Assembly (NCBI GenBank): GCA_900319465.1
Contig: ONOL01000010.1
Span: forward strand, 1-46,253
DNA: 46,253 bases
Origin: an uncultured Eubacteriales bacterium
GTDB taxonomy: Bacteria > Bacillota > Clostridia > Oscillospirales > Oscillospiraceae
Direction of reading: 5' to 3'
Below the pieces are notes generated by a model. It was not told where the DNA came from, did no database searches, and saw only the letters and a program-made list of their open reading frames with translations. Below are positions 2,528-22,168 of this stretch, one piece after another. Position 1 is the stretch's first letter; each line of letters opens with the position of its first letter. The position numbers and the translations under genes were made by a program.

Positions 2528-2556
2528 TTGACAGTAAATCCATAAAGCGCTATAGT
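2528..2556 (+). promoter_or_regulatory. Sigma-A promoter of the aromatic amino acid operon
   Basis: TTGACA (2528-2533) and TATAGT (2551-2556) are separated by exactly 17 bases. Transcription should start near 2563, about 11 bases ahead of the leader-peptide ribosome binding site (AAAGGA, 2574-2579). The 322-base gap 2479-2800 holds this promoter, the leader peptide, the attenuator terminator and the aroF ribosome binding site. Confidence 0.85.
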
Positions 2557-2588
2557 AATCCCAGACTTTTCCGAAAGGATTCCGGAAC

Positions 2589-2642
2589 ATGAAGGCTTAT
2601 TACTTTACCGCTTATTATACCTTTACCGTCTCTGCCCGGTAA
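2589..2642 (+). CDS. Tyr/Phe-rich leader peptide of the aro operon
   Basis: This 17-codon ORF encodes MKAYYFTAYYTFTVSAR and ends at TAA 2640-2642. Six of 17 residues are aromatic (4 Tyr, 2 Phe), arranged as AYYFT then AYYTFT. It has its own ribosome binding site (AAAGGA, 2574-2579, 9 bases from the ATG). It lies between a consensus promoter and an intrinsic terminator, ahead of genes that make Tyr and Phe. That arrangement matches ribosome-mediated attenuators such as E. coli pheL and trpL. The 3' end of the ORF folds into a hairpin (2621-2628 with 2637-2644), and 2651-2657 can pair with 2686-2692, which would disrupt the terminator. Function is inferred from composition and context; the peptide itself is presumably only a sensor. 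Confidence 0.82.
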   Translation: MKAYYFTAYYTFTVSAR

Positions 2643-2687
2643 GGATAATTTGTGGTGCAAGAAACAGCCTCCCGCTTTGCTTGATTG

Positions 2688-2718
2688 CCGCACAGGTTAT
2701 CCTGTGCGGTTTTGTTTT
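2688..2718 (+). terminator. Attenuator terminator between leader peptide and aroF
   Basis: A perfect 9-bp GC-rich stem pairs 2688-2696 with 2701-2709 around a TTAT loop and is followed by TTTTGTTTT. It stands 45 bases after the leader stop codon and about 80 bases before aroF. Every transcript from the promoter at 2528 must read through it to reach the structural genes, so it fits a regulated attenuator. Confidence 0.85.
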
Positions 2719-2800
2719 GGGGTCGCGCCGCGGTTTTCCGGCCCCGCGCCCCGGAAGGTACGAATCCTGATCCATAACAACATATAGAAGGAGCATCGCC

Positions 2801-3805
2801 ATGATTGTCGTATTAAAGCACAACGTATCCCAGGCCAGAAAGGAACAGCTCATCGCCTGGCTGGAGAATCTCGGACTTCGCATCCACGTCTCCGACGGGG
2901 AGTATCAGACCGTCCTGGGCCTGATCGGGGACACGAGCCGCGTGGACATGGATCTGGTGGCGAGCCTCGAGATCGTGGACTCCGTCAAGCGCGTCAGCGA
3001 GCCCTTCAAGTGCTGCAACCGCAAGTTCCATCCCGACGACATGGTGGTCGAGATCGGGAGCGTCAAGGTCGGCGGCGGCCATTTCGCGATGATCGCCGGC
3101 CCCTGCTCCGTGGAGAGCGAGGAGCAGATCGTGACCGTGGCGAAGGCCGTGAAGGCCTCGGGCGCGAACCTTCTGCGCGGCGGCGCCTTCAAGCCCCGCA
3201 CCTCCCCCTACGATTTCGCGGGCCTCAAGGCCACGGGCCTCGAGCTTCTCAAGATCGCCCGGCAGGAGACCGGGCTTCCCATCGTGACGGAGCTGATGAA
3301 CATCATGGACATCGACCTGTTCGAGGACGTGGACGTGATCCAGGTCGGCGCGCGCAATATGCAGAATTTCGACCTGCTGCGCGAGCTCGGTAAGCTCGAC
3401 AAGCCCGTCCTCCTCAAGCGCGGCCTTGCCAATACGCTCAAGGAGCTTCTGATGAGCGCCGAGTACATCATGGCCAGCGGCAACGAGCGCGTCATGCTCT
3501 GCGAGCGCGGCATCCGCACCTTCTCCGATTACACCCGCAATACGCTCGATCTCTCCGCCGTCCCCATGCTGCACGAGCTGACGCATCTTCCCGTGATCGT
3601 CGATCCCAGCCATGCCACCGGCATCGCCAAGCTGGTGCCGCCCATGGCGCTGGCGGGCGCCGCCGCCGGGGCGGACGGCCTGATCATCGAGGTGCACAAC
3701 GACCCGATGCACGCCCTGTGCGACGGGGCGCAGTCCCTGCGGCCGGAAGACTTCGACGCGCTTGCGAAGAAGGTATTTGCCGTGCGTGAGATCTGCAGGG
3801 CATGA
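2801..3805 (+). CDS. aroF: 3-deoxy-7-phosphoheptulonate (DAHP) synthase
   Basis: This enzyme condenses phosphoenolpyruvate with erythrose-4-phosphate, the first step of the shikimate pathway. The 334 residues comprise an N-terminal ferredoxin-like regulatory domain (about 1-70) and a TIM-barrel with the type I-beta motifs [38 protein letters not shown] and DPSHATG. The N-terminal domain is the one that confers Tyr/Phe feedback in Thermotoga-type enzymes, so feedback is likely here (inference). AGAAGGAG (2786-2793) lies 7 bases upstream of the ATG. It is the first structural gene after the attenuator and overlaps tyrA by four bases (ATGA). Confidence 0.95.
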
Positions 3806-4635
3806 GAGTCGGGATTGTCGGCCTTGGTCTGATCGGCGGTTCCTTCGCCAAGGCTTACCGTGCGGCGGGACACAGCGTCCTCGCCTGGAACCGCAGCCGC
3901 TCCGTGCTGGATTTCGCCATTATGTCCGGCACTGCGGACGGAGAACTGACAAAAGAGAACCTGCCGGACTGCGATCTGGTGCTGCTGTGCGTCTACCCGC
4001 AGGCCGCCATTGACTGGCTGACGGATATGGCGCCCTACGTGGGGAAAAAGCCCCTGGTCATCGACTGCTGCGGCACCAAGCGCGTGGTCTGTGCGGCCTG
4101 TTTCCCGCTGGCGGAGCAATACGGCTTCACCTATCTCGGCGGGCACCCCATGGCCGGCACGCACAACTCCGGCCTCAAATATGCCCGCGCCGAGCTTTAT
4201 CACGGCGCGCCGATGGTCATCGTTCCGCCGGTGTACGACGATATCGAGCTGCTCGACCGCGCAAAGGAGATGCTTGCTCCTGCCGGGTTCGGGCACATCT
4301 CCGTCACGACCGCCGAAAAGCACGACGCGATGATCGCCTTCACCTCGCAGATGGCGCACGTGGTCTCCAACGCCTTTATCAAAAGCCCTACCGCGTCGGT
4401 GCACAAGGGCTTTTCCGCGGGCAGCTACAAGGATCTGACCCGCGTCGCCTGGCTCAACGCGCCCATGTGGGCGGAGCTTTTCATGGAGAACAGGGACTAT
4501 CTGCTTGATGAGCTGAACATTCTGATCGACAACCTCAGCGCCTACCGGACCGCGATGGAAAACGGCGACCGGGAGGAGCTGACGCGCCTGCTGGAGGAAG
4601 GCAAGCGCCGCAAGGAAGAGGTGGACGGCCGATGA
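3802..4635 (+). CDS. tyrA: Prephenate dehydrogenase
   Basis: This enzyme oxidatively decarboxylates prephenate to 4-hydroxyphenylpyruvate, the committed step to tyrosine. The 277-residue protein begins with the NAD-binding Rossmann motif [13 protein letters not shown]. It carries [13 protein letters not shown], which holds the conserved active-site His-Pro segment of the TyrA family, and the all-alpha dimerisation half follows ([22 protein letters not shown]). It lacks a C-terminal ACT domain, so direct Tyr feedback through such a domain is not expected. It is translationally coupled to aroF (ATGA) and aroB (ATGA), which places the Tyr branch second in the operon. Confidence 0.94.
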
Positions 4636-5693
4636 GAAGCGTTAGCGTTCAGGCGTCCCGAAGCTATGAGGTGTTGATCGGGCGCGGCCTTCTTGACGAA
4701 GCCGGCGCGCGCGTAAAGGCGGCTGCGCCGAAGGCGGAAACCGCCGTGATCGTTTCCGGGGACCGGGTATGGCCCCTGTACGGCGCGCGCGCGGAAGCCT
4801 CGCTGGAAAAGGCGGGCTTTCGCGTGCTGCGTTATCTCATCCCGCACGGGGAGCAGCATAAAACGCTGGAGACCTATACGGGGCTTTTAAGCTTCCTCTG
4901 CGACCGGCGCCTGACCCGAAGCGACGTGCTTGTCGCGCTCGGCGGCGGCGTGACGGGGGATCTGACCGGCTTTGCCGCCGCGACCTATCAGCGCGGCTGC
5001 GGCTTTGTGCAGATCCCGACGACCCTGCTCGCGATGGTGGACTCTTCCGTAGGCGGCAAGACCGCCGTGGATCTGCCCGGCGGGAAAAACCAGGCCGGAG
5101 CCTTTTACCAGCCCCTTCTTGTGCTCTGCGACCCCGATACGCTCGAAACGCTTCCCGAAGAGGAGTTTCGCTGCGGCTGCGCGGAGGTCATCAAATACGG
5201 CATGCTCGGAGACGCGGCTTTCTTTGCCTCCCTCCGGCGCCGGCATGTGCGCGGGCAGCTTGAGGACGTGATCGAGCACTGCGTCGCCATGAAGCGCGAT
5301 ATTGTGCATGAGGACGAGTTCGACACCGGGCTGCGGCGGCTGCTGAACCTCGGACACAGCTTCGGCCACGCGGTGGAGAGCTGCAGCGGGTTTACGGTGC
5401 TGCACGGGCAGGCGGTCGCCGTCGGAATGGCGATGATCACCCGAGCCGCCGTAAAAAAGGGCTTCTGCGCGCAGGAGACGCTTGCAAGGCTCCTCGATAT
5501 CCTCTCTTTTTACGGGCTTCCCGCTTCCTGTGAATATAGCGCTGACGCGCTGGCTGCGGCCATGCGCAGCGATAAGAAAATGACCGGCGGCACCATGCAT
5601 CTGGTGGTGCCGGAGGCTGTGGGCCGCTGCCGTGTGCTCGCGCTCCCGGCGGAGGAGCTGGGCGACTGGCTCAGAGAGGGGGGCGCGCGATGA
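4632..5693 (+). CDS. aroB: 3-dehydroquinate synthase
   Basis: This enzyme converts DAHP to 3-dehydroquinate using NAD and a divalent metal, step 2 of the shikimate pathway. The 353 residues show the NAD-binding segment [21 protein letters not shown], the conserved [25 protein letters not shown] stretch, and metal and substrate residues in [21 protein letters not shown] and [10 protein letters not shown]. The length is typical of the family. Four-base overlaps join it to tyrA upstream and aroA downstream. Confidence 0.96.
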
Positions 5694-6937
5694 ACCGCGT
5701 GGTATTGCCCGGCGAGCGCCGGGGCTGCGTGCGTATCCCCGCCTCCAAATCCCAGGCCCACCGGCTTCTGATCTGTGCCGCGCTCTCATCCTCGCCCTGC
5801 GAGCTTCTCTGCGACGGCATTTCCGCCGATATCGCGGCGACGATCGCCTGCCTGAACGCCCTTGGCGCGGAGATCTCTGTTTCCGATAACCGCATCCTCG
5901 TCGCGCCGATCCGGGAAGTGCCCGGAAACGTCTGCGGGCTTCCCTGCGGCGAGAGCGGCTCTACGCTTCGCTTCCTGCTGCCGGTGGTCGGCGCGCTCGG
6001 GGCGGACGCGGTTTTCCATCGGGAAGGAAGGCTTCCGCAGCGCCCGCTCGCCCCGCTGGACGAGGCGCTGTGCGCGCATGGGATGCAGATCCGGCAGGAG
6101 GGGGACAGGCTCTGCTGCCGGGGACAGCTCTGCCCCGGCGCGTATTCGCTGCCGGGAAACGTGTCGTCCCAGTACATTTCCGGTCTGCTGCTGGCGCTGC
6201 CCCTGCTCAAAGGGGACAGCAGCCTGCACGTGACCGGAACTGTCGAATCCGCCGCATATATCACGATGACCGAGGACGCGCTGCGCACCTCCGGGATCCG
6301 AATCGAAAAAAACCATTGGAACTACGGGATCGCGGGCTCGCAGAAGCCCCGGATGCCCGCATCGCTTCCTGTGGAGAGCGACTGGTCGAACGCCGCGTTC
6401 TTCCTCGCCGTTGGGGCGCTGTCCCGTCAGGGGATGAAGGTCATGGGACTCAACCCCGCCTCCTCGCAGGGCGACCGTGCGGTGCTGGACGTACTCAGAC
6501 GCTTCGGCGCCGAGATCAGCGAGCAGCCGGACGCGGTGCTGATCCGCCGCGGCGAGCTGCGCGCGGTGGAGATTGACGCGGCGCCGATTCCGGATCTGAT
6601 CCCGGTGCTGAGCGTCGTCGCCGCGGGCGCGGAGGGGGAGACCCGGATCGTGAACGCCGCGCGGCTTCGCCTGAAGGAATCCGACCGGCTTGCAAGCACC
6701 TGCGCCATGCTCCGCGCGCTCGGCGCGGAGGCGCAAGAGCTTGCCGACGGCCTTGTCATCCGGGGCGGAAAAGCCCTGAAGGGCGGCGCGGTGGATTCCT
6801 GCGGCGATCACCGGATCGCCATGTCCGCCGCGGTCGCTTCCTGCCTCTGCGAAGGGGAGGTCACGGTCTGCGGCAGCGAATGTGTAAAAAAATCCTATCC
6901 CCGCTTCTGGGAGGACTGGGAGGGCCTGTTTCTATGA
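5690..6937 (+). CDS. aroA: 3-phosphoshikimate 1-carboxyvinyltransferase (EPSP synthase)
   Basis: This enzyme transfers the enolpyruvyl group of PEP to shikimate-3-phosphate. The 415-residue protein has the two-domain inside-out barrel signatures: PASKSQAHRLLICAAL near the N terminus, GESGSTLRFLLPV in the first domain, and the late RLKESDRLASTCAMLRALG and SCGDHRIAMSAAVA motifs. The first-domain motif reads CGESGSTLRF where the glyphosate-sensitive E. coli enzyme has GNAGTAMRP. I infer a class II-like enzyme from this, but sensitivity cannot be read from sequence alone. Overlaps with aroB and aroC are both ATGA. Confidence 0.95.
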   Translation: MNRVVLPGERRGCVRIPASKSQAHRLLICAALSSSPCELLCDGISADIAATIACLNALGAEISVSDNRILVAPIREVPGNVCGLPCGESGSTLRFLLPVVGALGADAVFHREGRLPQRPLAPLDEALCAHGMQIRQEGDRLCCRGQLCPGAYSLPGNVSSQYISGLLLALPLLKGDSSLHVTGTVESAAYITMTEDALRTSGIRIEKNHWNYGIAGSQKPRMPASLPVESDWSNAAFFLAVGALSRQGMKVMGLNPASSQGDRAVLDVLRRFGAEISEQPDAVLIRRGELRAVEIDAAPIPDLIPVLSVVAAGAEGETRIVNAARLRLKESDRLASTCAMLRALGAEAQELADGLVIRGGKALKGGAVDSCGDHRIAMSAAVASCLCEGEVTVCGSECVKKSYPRFWEDWEGLFL

Positions 6938-8004
6938 GCAGCAGCTATGGAGAAAACCTGAAACTGACGATCTTCGGCCAATCCCATTCGCCCGCGATCG
7001 GCGTGACGATCGAGGGGATCCCGGCGGGGGAACGGATCGATTTTGAAGAGCTGGCCGCCTTTCTGCGCCGCCGCGCCCCGGGGCAGAACGCCTGGAGCAC
7101 GGCGAGGAAGGAAGCGGACGCGCCGGAGTTTCTGTCCGGTCTGGTAGGGAATACCACCTGCGGCACGCCCCTTACGGCCGTTATCCGCAACAGCGACACC
7201 CGCTCGAAGGACTACTCGAATCTCACCGTCACGCCGCGGCCCGGCCATGCGGACTATACCGCGTCGGTCAAGTACTTCGGCGCGCAGGACTACGCGGGCG
7301 GCGGGCACTTTTCCGGCCGGCTCACCGCGCCGCTCTGCGTGGCCGGCGGGATCTGCCTGCAGCTTCTCAAACATGAGGGGATCACCGTCATCTCCCGCAT
7401 CGCCTCGATCGGAGGAATCGCGGACGAAGGCGAGCTGACCGCCACGACTGCGGAGAAGGACTTTCCCACGGTGGATACTGCGCGCGGCGAGCGGATGCGC
7501 GCCGCCATCGCGCAGGCCAGAGCGGAGGGGGATTCGCTCGGCGGCGTGGTGGAATGTGCGGTGCTCGGCCTGCCCGCCGGGCTCGGCGACCCGATGTTCG
7601 ACGGGATGGAAAACCGGATCGCGGCCCTTGTTTTCGGCATTCCCGCCGTCAAGGGCCTGGAATTCGGCGCGGGCTTCGCCGCCGCCGCGCTGCGAGGCAG
7701 CGAGAACAACGACGCCTTTGCCGTGAAGGACGGTCGGATCGTGACCGTGACAAACCGCTGCGGGGGCATCCTCGGCGGCATCACGACCGGTATGCCGCTC
7801 ACGTTCCGCGCGGCCTTCAAGCCCACGCCCTCGATCGCACGGCCGCAGCAGAGCGTGAACCTGCGCACGGGGGAAGAGGAGACGCTGCGTATCGTCGGCA
7901 GGCACGACCCCTGTATCGTTCCCCGGGCGGTGCCGGTAGTGGAGGCGGCGGCCGCGATCGCCGTATATGACGCGCTGCTTGCGCGCAGAAAGGAAGTGCG
8001 ATAA
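6934..8004 (+). CDS. aroC: Chorismate synthase
   Basis: This enzyme eliminates phosphate from EPSP to give chorismate and needs reduced FMN. The 356-residue protein shows the family motifs GQSHSPAIGVTIEGIPAG at the N terminus, RPGHADYTASVKYF, GGGHFSGRLTAPL, and near the C terminus CGGILGGITTGMPL and the RHDPCIVPRAVPVVEA signature. The ATG at 6934 overlaps the aroA stop (ATGA); in-frame codons further upstream would extend into aroA. It directly abuts pheA with no intergenic base. Confidence 0.96.
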   Translation: MSSSYGENLKLTIFGQSHSPAIGVTIEGIPAGERIDFEELAAFLRRRAPGQNAWSTARKEADAPEFLSGLVGNTTCGTPLTAVIRNSDTRSKDYSNLTVTPRPGHADYTASVKYFGAQDYAGGGHFSGRLTAPLCVAGGICLQLLKHEGITVISRIASIGGIADEGELTATTAEKDFPTVDTARGERMRAAIAQARAEGDSLGGVVECAVLGLPAGLGDPMFDGMENRIAALVFGIPAVKGLEFGAGFAAAALRGSENNDAFAVKDGRIVTVTNRCGGILGGITTGMPLTFRAAFKPTPSIARPQQSVNLRTGEEETLRIVGRHDPCIVPRAVPVVEAAAAIAVYDALLARRKEVR

Positions 8005-9144
8005 ATGGAGCTTCAGGATTACCGCAGAGAGCTGGACGGCATCGACGACGAGCTTTTACAGCTCTTTTGCCGCCGCATGGAGATCGCGGCGCAGATCGGC
8101 GCCTATAAAAAGGCCAACGGCCTCCCCATACTCGATCCCGCGCGCGAGCGCCAGATCCTTCTGAAGATCCGGGACAAGAGCCCGGAGGGGATGGGGGACT
8201 ATGCCGTATCGCTCTATTCGCTCATTTTCGAGCTGAGCCGCGCGAGCCAGAACCGGCTCATGGGTGAAAAAGCCCCTCTGACGCAGCAGATCGAAAACGC
8301 CGTCGCCGGCACGCCGGCGCTCTTTCCCGACAGCGCCATGGTGGCCTGCCAGGGCGTGGAGGGCGCGAACTCCCAGCTCGCCTGCGAAAAGCTCTTCAGA
8401 CTGCCGAACATCTTTTATTTTAAAAGCTTCGAGGCGGTGTTCTCCGCGATCGACAGCGGCCTGTGCCGCTACGGCGTGGTGCCGGTGGAAAACAGCACCG
8501 CCGGTTCCGTCAACGCGGTCTACGATTTGATGATGAAGCACAATTTCCGCATCGTGCGCAGCGTCAGGATGAAGGTCGACCACAATCTCCTGGCAAAGCC
8601 CGGCACGAAGCTCTCCGATATCCGGGAGATCTACTCCCACCAGCAGGCGATCAGCCAGTGCGCGCAGTTCCTGCAGGGGCTCAATGGCGTCAAGGTCATC
8701 CCCTGCGAGAATACCGCCGCGGCCGCGAAGCTCGCCGCCGAGTCCGACGGCTCGGTGGCCGCGCTCTCCTCGCGCTCCTGCATGAAGCTCTACGGCCTGG
8801 AGTGTCTCGCCGCGTCGGTGCAGGACCGCGGGAACAACAGCACCCGTTTCATCTGCATCAGCAAGGATCTGGAGATCTATCCGGGCGCCGACCGCACGAG
8901 CCTCATGATGGTGCTGCCCCATACGCCGGGCAGCCTTTACAAGGTGCTGGCGCGCTTCTATGCGCTGGGGCTGAACCTCAACAAGCTGGAGAGCCGCCCG
9001 CTCCCGGACCGGAACTTCGAGTTTATGTTCTACTTCGATCTGGATACGCCGGTCTATTCGCCGGGACTTCTGCAGCTCATGGGCGAGATGGACACGATCT
9101 GCGAGGACTTCAGCTATCTCGGCAGTTACAGCGAGGTGATCTGA
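8005..9144 (+). CDS. pheA: Bifunctional chorismate mutase / prephenate dehydratase (P-protein)
   Basis: This enzyme converts chorismate to prephenate and then to phenylpyruvate, the committed Phe branch. The 379 residues hold an AroQ-type chorismate mutase helix bundle (about 1-90, YRRELDGIDDELLQLFCRRM). A prephenate dehydratase domain follows (about 105-285) with GVVPVENSTAGSVNAVYDLM, SHQQAISQCAQFL and the catalytic-site NNSTRF. A C-terminal ACT domain (about 300-375) ends in LNKLESRPL, the ESRP motif that binds feedback phenylalanine. The start codon immediately follows the aroC stop. Because tyrA here has no fused mutase, this mutase probably also supplies prephenate for Tyr. Confidence 0.95.
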   Translation: MELQDYRRELDGIDDELLQLFCRRMEIAAQIGAYKKANGLPILDPARERQILLKIRDKSPEGMGDYAVSLYSLIFELSRASQNRLMGEKAPLTQQIENAVAGTPALFPDSAMVACQGVEGANSQLACEKLFRLPNIFYFKSFEAVFSAIDSGLCRYGVVPVENSTAGSVNAVYDLMMKHNFRIVRSVRMKVDHNLLAKPGTKLSDIREIYSHQQAISQCAQFLQGLNGVKVIPCENTAAAAKLAAESDGSVAALSSRSCMKLYGLECLAASVQDRGNNSTRFICISKDLEIYPGADRTSLMMVLPHTPGSLYKVLARFYALGLNLNKLESRPLPDRNFEFMFYFDLDTPVYSPGLLQLMGEMDTICEDFSYLGSYSEVI

Positions 9145-10365
9145 ATGAAATGCGGCCTTCTAGGCGAAAAGCTGGGACACAGCTATTCGCCGGCGATCCA
9201 CGGCATGCTTGCCGGCTATGAGTACCGGCTTTACGAAAAAGCGCCGGATCAGGTGGAGGATTTCATCCGAAACGGCGATTGGGACGGTCTGAACGTCACG
9301 ATCCCCTACAAGAAGACCGTTCTGCCGCTCTGCGATGAGCTTTCGGAACGGGCAAAACGGATCGGCAGCGTTAACACGCTGGTGCGCCGGGCGGACGGGA
9401 CGGTCTTCGGTGACAATACCGACGCCTACGGCTTTGAGAAGCTGATCGGGCGCTGCGGGATGCAGGCTGCCGGAAAGAAAGCGCTGGTGCTCGGCAGCGG
9501 CGGCGCGTCCGTCATGGCGGTTGAGGTGCTGCGCGCTCTCGGCGCGTCGCCGGTCGTCGTCATCTCCCGCAGCGGCGAGGATAACTACGCAAACATCTGC
9601 CGCCACGCGGACGCGCGGCTTATCGTCAACACCACCCCCGTCGGCATGTACCCGAGAAACGGCGAGGCGGCGGTGGATCTGTGCGCGTTCCCGGACTGTG
9701 AGGGCGTGCTGGACGTGGTGTATAACCCGGCGCGGACGGCGCTGCTGCTGCAGGCGGAGAAGCTGGGGATTCCCCACGCGGGCGGGCTCTATATGCTCGT
9801 CGGCCAGGCCAAGCGCTCCTGCGAGCTGTTCACCGGCATGAGCATTCCCGATACGGAAATCGACCGTATCGAGACGATGCTGGCGCGCTCCATGCAGAAC
9901 ATCGTGCTGATCGGCATGCCCGGCTGCGGCAAGTCCACGGTCGGAAGCCTCCTCGCCGAAAAGCTCGCCCGTCCCCTCTGCGAAGCGGACGCGGAGATCG
10001 AGAAGGCGGCCGGAATGAGCATCCCCGAGATCTTCGCGATCGGCGGGGAAACGTCCTTCCGCCAGAAGGAGACAGCGGTGCTTTCCGAACTCGGCAAGCG
10101 CTCCGGCGCGGTGATTTCGACCGGCGGCGGCTGCGTTACGAGAGAGGGGAACTATTCTCTTTTGCACCAGAACGGCGTGATCGTCTGGCTGCGGAGAGAG
10201 ATCGACGCCCTGCCGAAGGACGGCCGGCCGATCTCCCTGAAGAGCGATCTGCACGAACTGTACGAAAAACGCCGTCCCCTCTACGCGCGCTTTGCCGATG
10301 CAGTTGTGGACAACGACGGCACGCCTGAAGAGACGGTGGAAAAGATCCTGGAGGTGCTGGGATGA
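9145..10365 (+). CDS. aroE-aroK: Fused shikimate dehydrogenase - shikimate kinase
   Basis: This single 406-residue protein appears to perform two consecutive steps: NADPH-dependent reduction of 3-dehydroshikimate, then ATP-dependent phosphorylation of shikimate. Residues about 1-245 are AroE, with substrate motif GHSYSPAIHG, catalytic Lys in LNVTIPYKK, NTDAYG and the cofactor loop GSGGAS. Residues about 250-406 are AroK, with Walker A GMPGCGKSTVG, DAEIEKAAG, FRQKE, the STGGGCVTRE substrate loop and RRPLYARFAD. Both active sites look intact and no stop or ribosome binding site separates them. The AroE half is somewhat short but complete in its motifs. It abuts pheA and overlaps aroQ by ATGA. 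Confidence 0.93.
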   Translation: MKCGLLGEKLGHSYSPAIHGMLAGYEYRLYEKAPDQVEDFIRNGDWDGLNVTIPYKKTVLPLCDELSERAKRIGSVNTLVRRADGTVFGDNTDAYGFEKLIGRCGMQAAGKKALVLGSGGASVMAVEVLRALGASPVVVISRSGEDNYANICRHADARLIVNTTPVGMYPRNGEAAVDLCAFPDCEGVLDVVYNPARTALLLQAEKLGIPHAGGLYMLVGQAKRSCELFTGMSIPDTEIDRIETMLARSMQNIVLIGMPGCGKSTVGSLLAEKLARPLCEADAEIEKAAGMSIPEIFAIGGETSFRQKETAVLSELGKRSGAVISTGGGCVTREGNYSLLHQNGVIVWLRREIDALPKDGRPISLKSDLHELYEKRRPLYARFADAVVDNDGTPEETVEKILEVLG

Positions 10366-10811
10366 AGTTTCTGGTCATCAACGGCCCCAATCTCAATCTG
10401 CTTGGCCTGCGCGAGCCGGAGATCTACGGCCGGCAGGATTTCGCGGCGCTGCAGCAGTTCGTCCGCGACGCGGCGGCGGAAGCCGGCGTAGAGGTCGAGC
10501 TGTTTCAGTCAAACCACGAGGGCGCGATCGTCGACACGATCCAGGAGGCTTACGGCAAGGCGGACGGCATCGTTATCAATCCTGCCGCCTATACCCATAC
10601 GAGCGTCGCGATCCTCGACGCGCTCAAGGCGGTGGCGCTGCCCGCGGTAGAGGTCCATCTCTCCGACGTGTCGAAGCGCGAGAGCTTCCGGCAGGTCTCT
10701 TATGCGGGGCTCGCCTGCGTCAAGACCTATATGGGGCTCGGCTTTGAGGGCTACCGGAGGGCGATCCTGTTCCTGCGCGATTTCTGCGAAGGCGAGGTGA
10801 AGCGGGCGTGA
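10362..10811 (+). CDS. aroQ: Type II 3-dehydroquinate dehydratase
   Basis: This enzyme dehydrates 3-dehydroquinate to 3-dehydroshikimate. The 149-residue flavodoxin-like protein has the type II signature INGPNLNLLGLREPEIYG with the conserved Asn and active-site Tyr. The QSNHEGAIVDTIQEA and INPAAYTHTSVAILDAL segments and catalytic His in EVHLSDV are also present. With this gene the operon encodes every step from DAHP to chorismate. It overlaps the preceding fusion gene by ATGA and the following membrane-protein gene by GTGA. Confidence 0.96.
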   Translation: MKFLVINGPNLNLLGLREPEIYGRQDFAALQQFVRDAAAEAGVEVELFQSNHEGAIVDTIQEAYGKADGIVINPAAYTHTSVAILDALKAVALPAVEVHLSDVSKRESFRQVSYAGLACVKTYMGLGFEGYRRAILFLRDFCEGEVKRA

Positions 10812-19299: not shown

Positions 19300-19305
19300 A
19301 ACATA

Positions 19306-19520
19306 GGCTTTGACGAAAAGAGCCGGTTTTCCGCGCATTTCAGAGAGGGATCGTTCGCTGCGAGATCCCATGCGCGCCTCCGGCAGCCGTTTCCGAGCCT
19401 CCCCGCGACGAGCGGGGCGCAAGCCTGCGTTACAGGCGCTTGAGAGATCGCGCAAGCGATAATCAGGGTGGTACCGCGAATTCACCTTCGCCCCTGTTTC
19501 CGGGGCGAAGGTTTATTTTT
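19306..19520 (+). ncRNA. T-box riboswitch (tRNA-Ala sensing) upstream of alaS
   Basis: The T-box sequence AGGGTGGTACCGCG lies at 19465-19478. The downstream terminator pairs 19484-19494 with 19502-19512 and ends in a T-rich tract to 19520. Upstream, a Stem I is visible: gcgcat pairs with atgcgc around an AGAGAG-type bulge and a ctgc-containing distal loop. Below it gccgg pairs with ccggc, leaving GCC (Ala) unpaired as the probable specifier codon. Uncharged tRNA-Ala would stabilise the antiterminator and raise alaS expression. Confidence 0.92.
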
Positions 19521-19531
19521 TGGAGGACAAC

Positions 19532-22168
<2,637 letters not shown>

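Follow-up and report, generated by a model that had tools for sequence, protein, structure and literature searches.

A predicted Tyr/Phe leader-peptide attenuator before the aro genes of an uncultured Oscillospiraceae bacterium and its relatives

The leader in front of the aro genes of an uncultured Oscillospiraceae bacterium is very probably a ribosome-mediated transcription attenuator that senses Tyr and Phe. We analysed this leader in the window, the whole 46,253-nucleotide stretch of DNA under study, by comparison of relatives, RNA folding and a ribosome-position model. The comparison showed that the aro genes are preceded by a putative promoter, a coding-like Tyr/Phe ORF and three conserved helices that exclude one another. 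The initial annotation had proposed a Tyr/Phe ribosome-mediated attenuator at this site, and the proposal is supported by conservation, covariation and the ribosome model. Judged from its matches in other genomes, the element is not peculiar to the window's organism.

In the proposed mechanism, a ribosome supplied with charged Tyr-tRNA and Phe-tRNA would reach the stop codon of the leader ORF and cover region 2, and the terminator (regions 3:4) would form. Without a ribosome, the 1:2 hairpin would hold region 2 and the terminator would form too. When Tyr- or Phe-tRNA is scarce, the ribosome would stall among the Tyr/Phe codons, most effectively at Tyr9, Tyr10 and Phe12, and break the 1:2 hairpin. 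The freed region 2 would then pair with the emerging region 3, and polymerase would enter aroF-tyrA-aroB-aroA-aroC-pheA-aroEK-aroQ.

Leader architecture and gene order

The promoter, ribosome binding site, 17-codon ORF with four Tyr and two Phe codons, and terminator that had been annotated before aroF were confirmed by direct reading and by a scan. The sigma-A-type promoter (2528-2556, + strand) consists of TTGACA (2528-2533), a 17-nt spacer and TATAGT (2551-2556), agreeing with the consensus at 11 of 12 positions. Among 69 leaders, 61 have a TTGACN-16/18-TANNNT match at most 100 nt 5' of the leader ATG, compared to 0.38 expected from shuffling. The Shine-Dalgarno-like string GAAAGGA (2573-2579, +) precedes the leader ORF, and similar strings precede the ATG in 58/69 leaders by a permissive pattern counted without a control. 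The ORF (2589-2642, +), which is conserved in relatives, encodes MKAYYFTAYYTFTVSAR from an ATG at 2589 to a TAA at 2640-2642, with Tyr at codons 4, 5, 9 and 10 and Phe at codons 6 and 12. The control codons favoured by modelled stalls, Tyr9 and Tyr10 (2613-2618) and Phe12 (2622-2624), lie within 2613-2624 (+).

Region 1 (2614-2628, +) is the 5' arm of the 1:2 hairpin, and the 3' arm (2637-2649, +) runs across the stop codon into the beginning of region 2; both were supported by the fold model, the consensus fold and pair counts. In this hairpin the Tyr9-Thr13 codons pair with the stop-codon region. A hairpin previously annotated at the ORF end (2621-2628 with 2637-2644) is present as the core of this longer one. 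Region 2 (2643-2660, +; GGATAATTTGTGGTGCAA) and region 3 (2685-2702, +) are the 5' and 3' arms of the antiterminator, both supported by covariation. Positions 2643-2654 pair with 2691-2702, and beyond a 2x2 internal loop 2657-2660 pair with 2685-2688. Region 3 overlaps the left arm, loop and first right-arm bases of the intrinsic terminator, which was found by scan and occupies 2687-2718 (+) with its tail. The terminator reads GCCGCACAGG-TTAT-CCTGTGCGGT at 2687-2710, with 2687-2696 paired to 2701-2710, and is followed by the T-rich tail. The 1:2 hairpin, antiterminator and terminator each exclude their neighbour. Features that define attenuators as a class were found here: an intrinsic terminator stands between the leader ORF and aroF, the short ORF has a start codon, a Shine-Dalgarno string (by the permissive pattern) and codons of the regulated amino acids, and the antiterminator is exclusive both with the terminator and with the 1:2 protector hairpin. 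RNAfold gave -58.4 kcal/mol for 2564-2722 (z = -4.80).

Downstream, on the + strand and named against NCBIfam cut-offs, lie aroF (DAHP synthase, 2801-3805; NF006421 and TIGR01361, over cut-off), a prephenate dehydrogenase-like tyrA (3802-4635; best matches below cut-off), aroB (3-dehydroquinate synthase, 4632-5693; over), aroA (EPSP synthase, 5690-6937; over), aroC (chorismate synthase, 6940-8004; over, with the mechanical ORF start at 6880), a chorismate mutase/prephenate dehydratase-like pheA (8005-9144; below), an aroE-aroK fusion resembling shikimate dehydrogenase plus shikimate kinase (9145-10365; below) and aroQ (type II 3-dehydroquinate dehydratase, 10362-10811; over). The row is tightly packed, with 4-nt overlaps at four of its seven junctions, and from this spacing we infer that the eight aro genes form one transcript. 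A SigF-like sigma-factor gene, with a match under the SigF cut-off, ends at 2478, 5' of the leader promoter. The window's own genome comprises 2.0 Mb in 60 contigs. Elsewhere in the window, a T-box match (19301-19498, +; 90 bits, just below the 93-bit cut-off) was observed directly 5' of an alanyl-tRNA synthetase-like ORF (19520-22168; named by eye).

Conservation and covariation among relatives

We sought AroF in 61 genomes of the genus and found it in 48, with upstream sequence available for 47 (the 48th starts its contig); we examined the 44 loci in which the AroF match starts from the N-terminus. A second set consisted of named loci, the 80 best-scoring of 572 confirmed relatives, which overlaps the genus set through common genomes. 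The best-scoring named relatives by AroF were uncultured Oscillospiraceae, 'Ruminococcaceae' and Clostridia MAGs. A strict ORF test, which asked for an ATG-initiated frame of 12-32 aa, no less than 25% of it Tyr+Phe, upstream of aroF, succeeded in 32/44 genus loci, compared to 2.1 expected from dinucleotide shuffles; at L019 it chose a different ORF from that read by eye. A full-element test required an ORF with at least 20% Tyr+Phe, a terminator and a 2:3 duplex of -12 kcal/mol or lower within 600 nt, with three shuffles per locus. ORF, terminator and antiterminator were found together in 38/44 genus loci compared to 0.00 in shuffles, and in 69 of the 80 best-scoring named loci compared to 0.67. 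The script found no match in the remaining six genus loci (L032, L035, L040, L044, L046 and L047) and in 11 of the 80 best-scoring named loci. Of the script-negative loci, L040 has a 38-residue Tyr/Phe-rich ORF by eye. At L035 and L044, a promoter and a bare terminator-like hairpin without a leader ORF were seen by eye before aroF.

For helix comparisons, 127 upstream regions gave 80 distinct leaders past a Tyr/Phe/Trp filter and 75 with a terminator by our finder. Partners of each helix were swapped between loci in these 75 leaders, which still included six mispicked ORFs or terminators. Cognate partners were more stable than swapped ones for the antiterminator (-21.8 vs -19.1 kcal/mol), the terminator (-14.7 vs -9.6 kcal/mol) and the 1:2 hairpin (-20.8 vs -16.5 kcal/mol), and for all three helices 0/2000 permutations were as good as cognate. 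Dropping the six mispicked leaders left 69, of which 51 were aligned; the pair counts thus represent leaders of the typical kind. Left out were ten near-duplicates (L005, L027, L028, L031, L059, L074, L078, L083, L103 and L124) and eight divergent leaders (L036, L037, L041, L042, L102, L105, L107 and L120). In this alignment 93.7% of 815 antiterminator cells pair, with 31 cells changed on both sides compared to a shuffle mean of 7.6 (0/500 shuffles as high); the outermost pair, 70:103, fails in 24/51 leaders. For the 1:2 hairpin and terminator together, 90.6% of 1173 cells pair, with 56 both-side changes compared to 15.6 in shuffles, and pair 104:131 fails in 30/51 leaders.

The decisive pairs are those private to one helix, and each helix has covarying ones in the 51 leaders. 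Pair 55:118 is private to the antiterminator and occurs as AU 17, GC 13, GU 6, UA 4 and CG 3 times in the 51 leaders; column 55 is bulged in the 1:2 hairpin and column 118 lies in the terminator loop. The private covarying pair of the 1:2 hairpin is 37:47. Those of the terminator are 107:128 and 108:127, with columns 107 and 108 in the internal loop of the antiterminator. A consensus fold computed without a given structure recovered 1:2 and 3:4. The rival pairing claimed by the initial annotation exists, but in a different register from the one it gave: the longer pairing of 2643-2660 with 2685-2702 is supported, whereas 2651-2657 with 2686-2692 can be drawn (83.5% of 357 cells pair across the 51 sequences) but has only two cells changed on both sides, compared to a shuffle mean of 0.7 (63/500 shuffles as high).

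The ORF evolves under constraint on its aromatic residues. Codon column 22-24 encodes Tyr in 49/51 leaders (TAT 39, TAC 10), and other codon columns exchange TAY for TTY while Tyr/Phe stays. Inside the hairpin, columns 31-33 and 34-36 encode Phe in 50/51 and Thr in 51/51 leaders, although pairing constrains both of these too. By the initial annotation, relatives lacking a conserved small ORF or aromatic codons would have refuted the attenuator; the relatives did not refute it, and the ORF, 1:2 hairpin, antiterminator and terminator are conserved and covary. A few aroF leaders (L120, L135, L101 and L093) combine codons for Tyr, Phe and Trp; that of L120, for example, contains EYYWWFSLK. L120 and L135 are among a few leaders, from MAGs labelled Clostridia, that add Trp. 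Such leaders look as if they sense all three end products; L093, with its Tyr/Phe/Trp ORF before aroF, failed the full-element test.

Modelled ribosome positions and alternative explanations

The ribosome was modelled as a block from -18 to +12 of the A-site, a footprint of our own choosing. In full-length window RNA, the terminator probability was ~0.99 without a ribosome, with a ribosome at the stop codon, or with a stall at codons 4-6. Stalls at Tyr9, Tyr10 and Phe12 gave antiterminator probabilities of 0.67, 0.61 and 0.89, compared to 0.00 at codons 4-6, and codon by codon the antiterminator was favoured at codons 9-12 only. In nascent RNA with its 3' end at 2703, stalls at codons 3-15 gave antiterminator probabilities of 0.80-0.96 (0.92-0.93 at codons 4-6), compared to at most 0.01 at codons 16, 17 and the stop and 0.005 without a ribosome. 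Codons 9-12 are thus the predicted favoured control codons, and codons 4-6 would act in one of the two models only. By the model alone, the control codons are placed so that a stall would free region 2. The model supports the earlier claim that a ribosome at the stop codon would allow termination and one stalled at Tyr/Phe codons antitermination, with the stalls at codons 9-12.

We extended the model to 62 leaders, 13 of the 75 being dropped as mispicked or divergent. In 62/62 the terminator probability exceeded 0.5, whether the ribosome was absent or stood at the stop. A nascent antiterminator (>0.5) was predicted in 0/62 with the ribosome at the stop and in 62/62 at the best aromatic stall, 'best' being the maximum over several codons; it was also predicted in 20/62 without a ribosome. 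At full-length equilibrium the best stall favoured the antiterminator in only 28/62 leaders, and the model therefore leans on co-transcriptional folding. Stalls were predicted to be effective at 426/428 Tyr/Phe codons compared to 925/1082 of all codons; conversely, 426 of the 925 effective codons were aromatic compared to 2 of the remaining 157, most of which lie just before the stop. There is little codon specificity in the nascent model, where stalls work anywhere except at the last codons. The model distinguishes a ribosome stalled within the run from one that has finished, more than it distinguishes individual codons.

Direct binding of Tyr, Phe or a shikimate metabolite by a riboswitch or other RNA, the ORF being incidental, could be suspected from the strong sequence conservation of region 2 (GGNTAATTTGTGRTGCAA). 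This conservation is explained, however, by the double pairing of region 2 with regions 1 and 3. The part 5' of region 2 evolves like coding sequence, with Tyr/Phe retained, and 426 of the 428 Tyr/Phe codons lie outside the last codons, at which stalling would bring no benefit. No Rfam family other than one tRNA reached threshold in the window, and we consider direct ligand binding very unlikely.

Membership of the Rfam trpB motif, RF04312, would fit the similar layout of hairpin and terminator, and this motif was the best sub-threshold Rfam match over the element (22.8 bits, E 0.27-0.53). Its gathering score is 59 bits, however, and it had no match at E up to 1 in 20 loci of the window's family that match R1, our covariance model of the leader element. 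On the sub-threshold score and the lack of matches in these 20 relatives, RF04312 was rejected as the family of the aroF leader, its membership being extremely improbable. Since RF04312 loci carry their own Trp-codon ORF outside the model, the likeness is architectural. A translated small protein, or a constitutive terminator beside chance Tyr/Phe codons, is equally hard to credit: leader lengths are similar across relatives (median 18 codons), but the N- and C-termini both vary, whereas aromatic identity is kept, as are all three helices.

In Firmicutes this kind of control usually falls to T-boxes. In the B. cereus group, according to a survey (PMC2494555), tyrosine synthesis is under T-box control, and the window's own genome has seven T-box matches at E up to 0.001, two of them over cut-off; a tRNA-Tyr/Phe-sensing T-box here was nevertheless rejected, its probability negligible, since RF00230 had no match within 2480-2830 up to an E of 10 and the leader is, by eye, too short and without a specifier loop. 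No TRAP-type run of spaced (G/U)AG repeats was seen by eye in 2560-2800.

Range of the element and related systems

At E up to 0.001, R1 matched 97/250 genomes of the family, in 50/106 genera, the window's own included. Downstream genes were inspected for 90 of the 108 listed matches, with names assigned by NCBIfam for one or two of each kind and by shared N-termini for the rest; TrpX, PaaK, symporter and pheA matches were below curated cut-offs. The next gene was aroF (blastp) in 62/90. In another 20/90 it was a different and mostly aromatic gene: six TrpB-like, four sodium-symporter-like, four TrpX-like, three aroB, two PaaK-like and one pheA. Seven of the 90 had no usable downstream gene, and at L144 the next frame was ambiguous with a tyrA-like gene further on. 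Leaders before TrpB-like genes and before 3/4 symporters contain Trp codons (for example FYWYWFSFTD and YWFWFYFTM), and the downstream genes of the attenuator family fit its aromatic codons. We would guess, from its leader only, that the symporter carries aromatic amino acids. Phe/Tyr-rich leaders of a like kind were observed before phenylacetate-CoA-ligase-like genes at L204, L212 and L248 (the protein-family scan of the gene covered L204); their codons suggest a possible aromatic control of arylacetate use.

Beyond the window's family, the class scan matched R1 in 18/290 other genomes. Thirteen of the 19 matches precede aroF, in nine other families, and one precedes a PaaK-like gene; at L244, a match before aroF, the script picked no aromatic ORF. 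The five matches with no such downstream gene (L238, L241 and L245-L247) are probably false. Several of the leaders outside the family read through region 2 and stop later. A search of a plasmid collection gave no match. General control of TrpX-like and TrpB-like genes by the element was not supported by protein-anchored sampling, in which a clear aromatic leader stood at 2/30 TrpX-like loci (L262 and L264, with L277 uncertain) and at 1/30 TrpB-like loci (L304), the loci being the best-scoring matches with loci and not a random sample.

The window's own genome holds a second, weak R1 match (L309; C59:12563-12691, minus strand; 28.2 bits, E 0.003). It lies directly 5' of an independently found TrpX-like gene (C59:11572-12507, minus), and its aromatic leader encodes MVRRFAGYFRYSFWRKRG, alongside a terminator and an antiterminator of -19.3 kcal/mol. 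At every stall tried, the terminator persists in the equilibrium fold (0.92 or more), and the switching of this leader therefore rests on complementarity (-19.3 kcal/mol) and likeness. A TrpX-like paralogue (C46:47894-48757, minus) has a same-strand T-box match upstream (C46:49056-49309, minus; 76 bits, below the 93-bit cut-off). The genome thus probably uses both T-boxes and leader attenuators.

The mechanism proposed here is textbook, with pheL, trpL and hisL of E. coli as leader-peptide attenuators. Like these, the window leader combines an ORF enriched in codons for the amino acids under control with 1:2, 2:3 and 3:4 helices and an intrinsic terminator before a biosynthetic operon; unlike them, it encodes both Tyr and Phe, precedes a complete shikimate row with tyrA and pheA, and belongs to another phylum. 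No Rfam leader family reached threshold over the window. The nearest report is uORFC-13-1 (PMC8632094), found before aroF in Acholeplasma with a promoter, a uORF with at least one Phe codon and a terminator, for which attenuation was suggested. It shares with the window aroF, the promoter, the Phe-codon uORF and the terminator, and differs in its 24 representatives, which come from Acholeplasma and environmental sequences only, and in a description that mentions no Tyr codons. Ribosome-mediated attenuation in Firmicutes has likewise been described, with reporter or mutant evidence, for S. aureus ilv-leu (PMC5794164) and Listeria Rli60 (PMC5864092), but for branched-chain amino acids, in Bacilli and with other sequences. 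A His leader peptide before hisZ/hisS* in bacilli (PMC2965389) was likewise predicted from sequence in Firmicutes, where T-boxes are usual, but concerns histidine and aminoacyl-tRNA synthetase-related genes. That 2010 report states that, before its own example, leader-peptide attenuators were known from Proteobacteria and Actinobacteria only. Among the papers listed by our searches of the non-subscription literature, none concerned a leader attenuator with Tyr/Phe codons ahead of clostridial aro genes. The mechanism is known, and the Tyr/Phe leader family is absent from Rfam and the literature searched.

RF04312 is similar in that the 3' shoulder of its hairpin can pair with the terminator and in its link to trpB and a transporter (PMC11109978); it differs in being filed as a riboswitch candidate, in its sub-threshold score here and in having Trp codons in an ORF outside the motif. 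The report calls it a 'strong riboswitch candidate', its authors leaving the attenuator option open. In another family of the Bacillota phylum, RF04312 matched 27/29 genomes, 12 of them over cut-off, and a conserved ORF ending in WQxWRR and a stop, or a close variant, lies just outside the model. The string TGGCAANNNTGG occurs at most 62 nt upstream of RF04312 in 25/29 loci scanned (14/14 over cut-off and 11/15 below), a count without a chance control in which many loci are close relatives and a 30th, L325, was dropped as a likely false match. The loci concerned are L226, L311-L324, L326-L328, L330, L332-L334 and L337-L339; the start codon of the ORF was sought in 20 loci only. Bases after the WQxWRR stop pair with the P1 5' arm in 97.6% of 253 cells (23 loci, one mismatched position dropped), with six both-side changes compared to 0.9 in shuffles but no excess of further pair types (10 vs 10.7). 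These observations suggest that RF04312, instead of being a riboswitch, probably works as a ribosome-mediated Trp attenuator through an A:B/B:C/C:D/D:E cascade. We found no literature on RF04312 as a Trp leader-peptide attenuator.

Returning to the Tyr/Phe attenuator, we offer a broader view with slightly more doubt than belief. Clostridia may hold a single modular family of homologous aromatic attenuators. From the aro operon it would have spread to pheA, aroB, TrpB-like, sodium symporter, TrpX-like and phenylacetate-CoA-ligase-like genes, with codon content alone retuning it among Tyr, Phe and Trp, and it would work beside T-boxes within one genome; this would imply that leader ribosomes keep pace with polymerase in a phylum classed as uncoupled. 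Unfavourable to an attenuator here is the classing of Bacillota, at phylum level, as 'runaway' transcribers in which RNA polymerase outpaces lagging ribosomes (PMC13323073, 2026). The breadth of the family, its Trp-codon copies and this very conflict with the runaway-transcription label make it of wider interest. A covarying switch in many genera and nine other families would mean either that ribosomes are not outrun within the first ~100 nt or that the phylum label does not fit these bacteria. The leader also offers a way to study how uncultured bacteria of gut and rumen make aromatic amino acids, and the covariance model finds the element.
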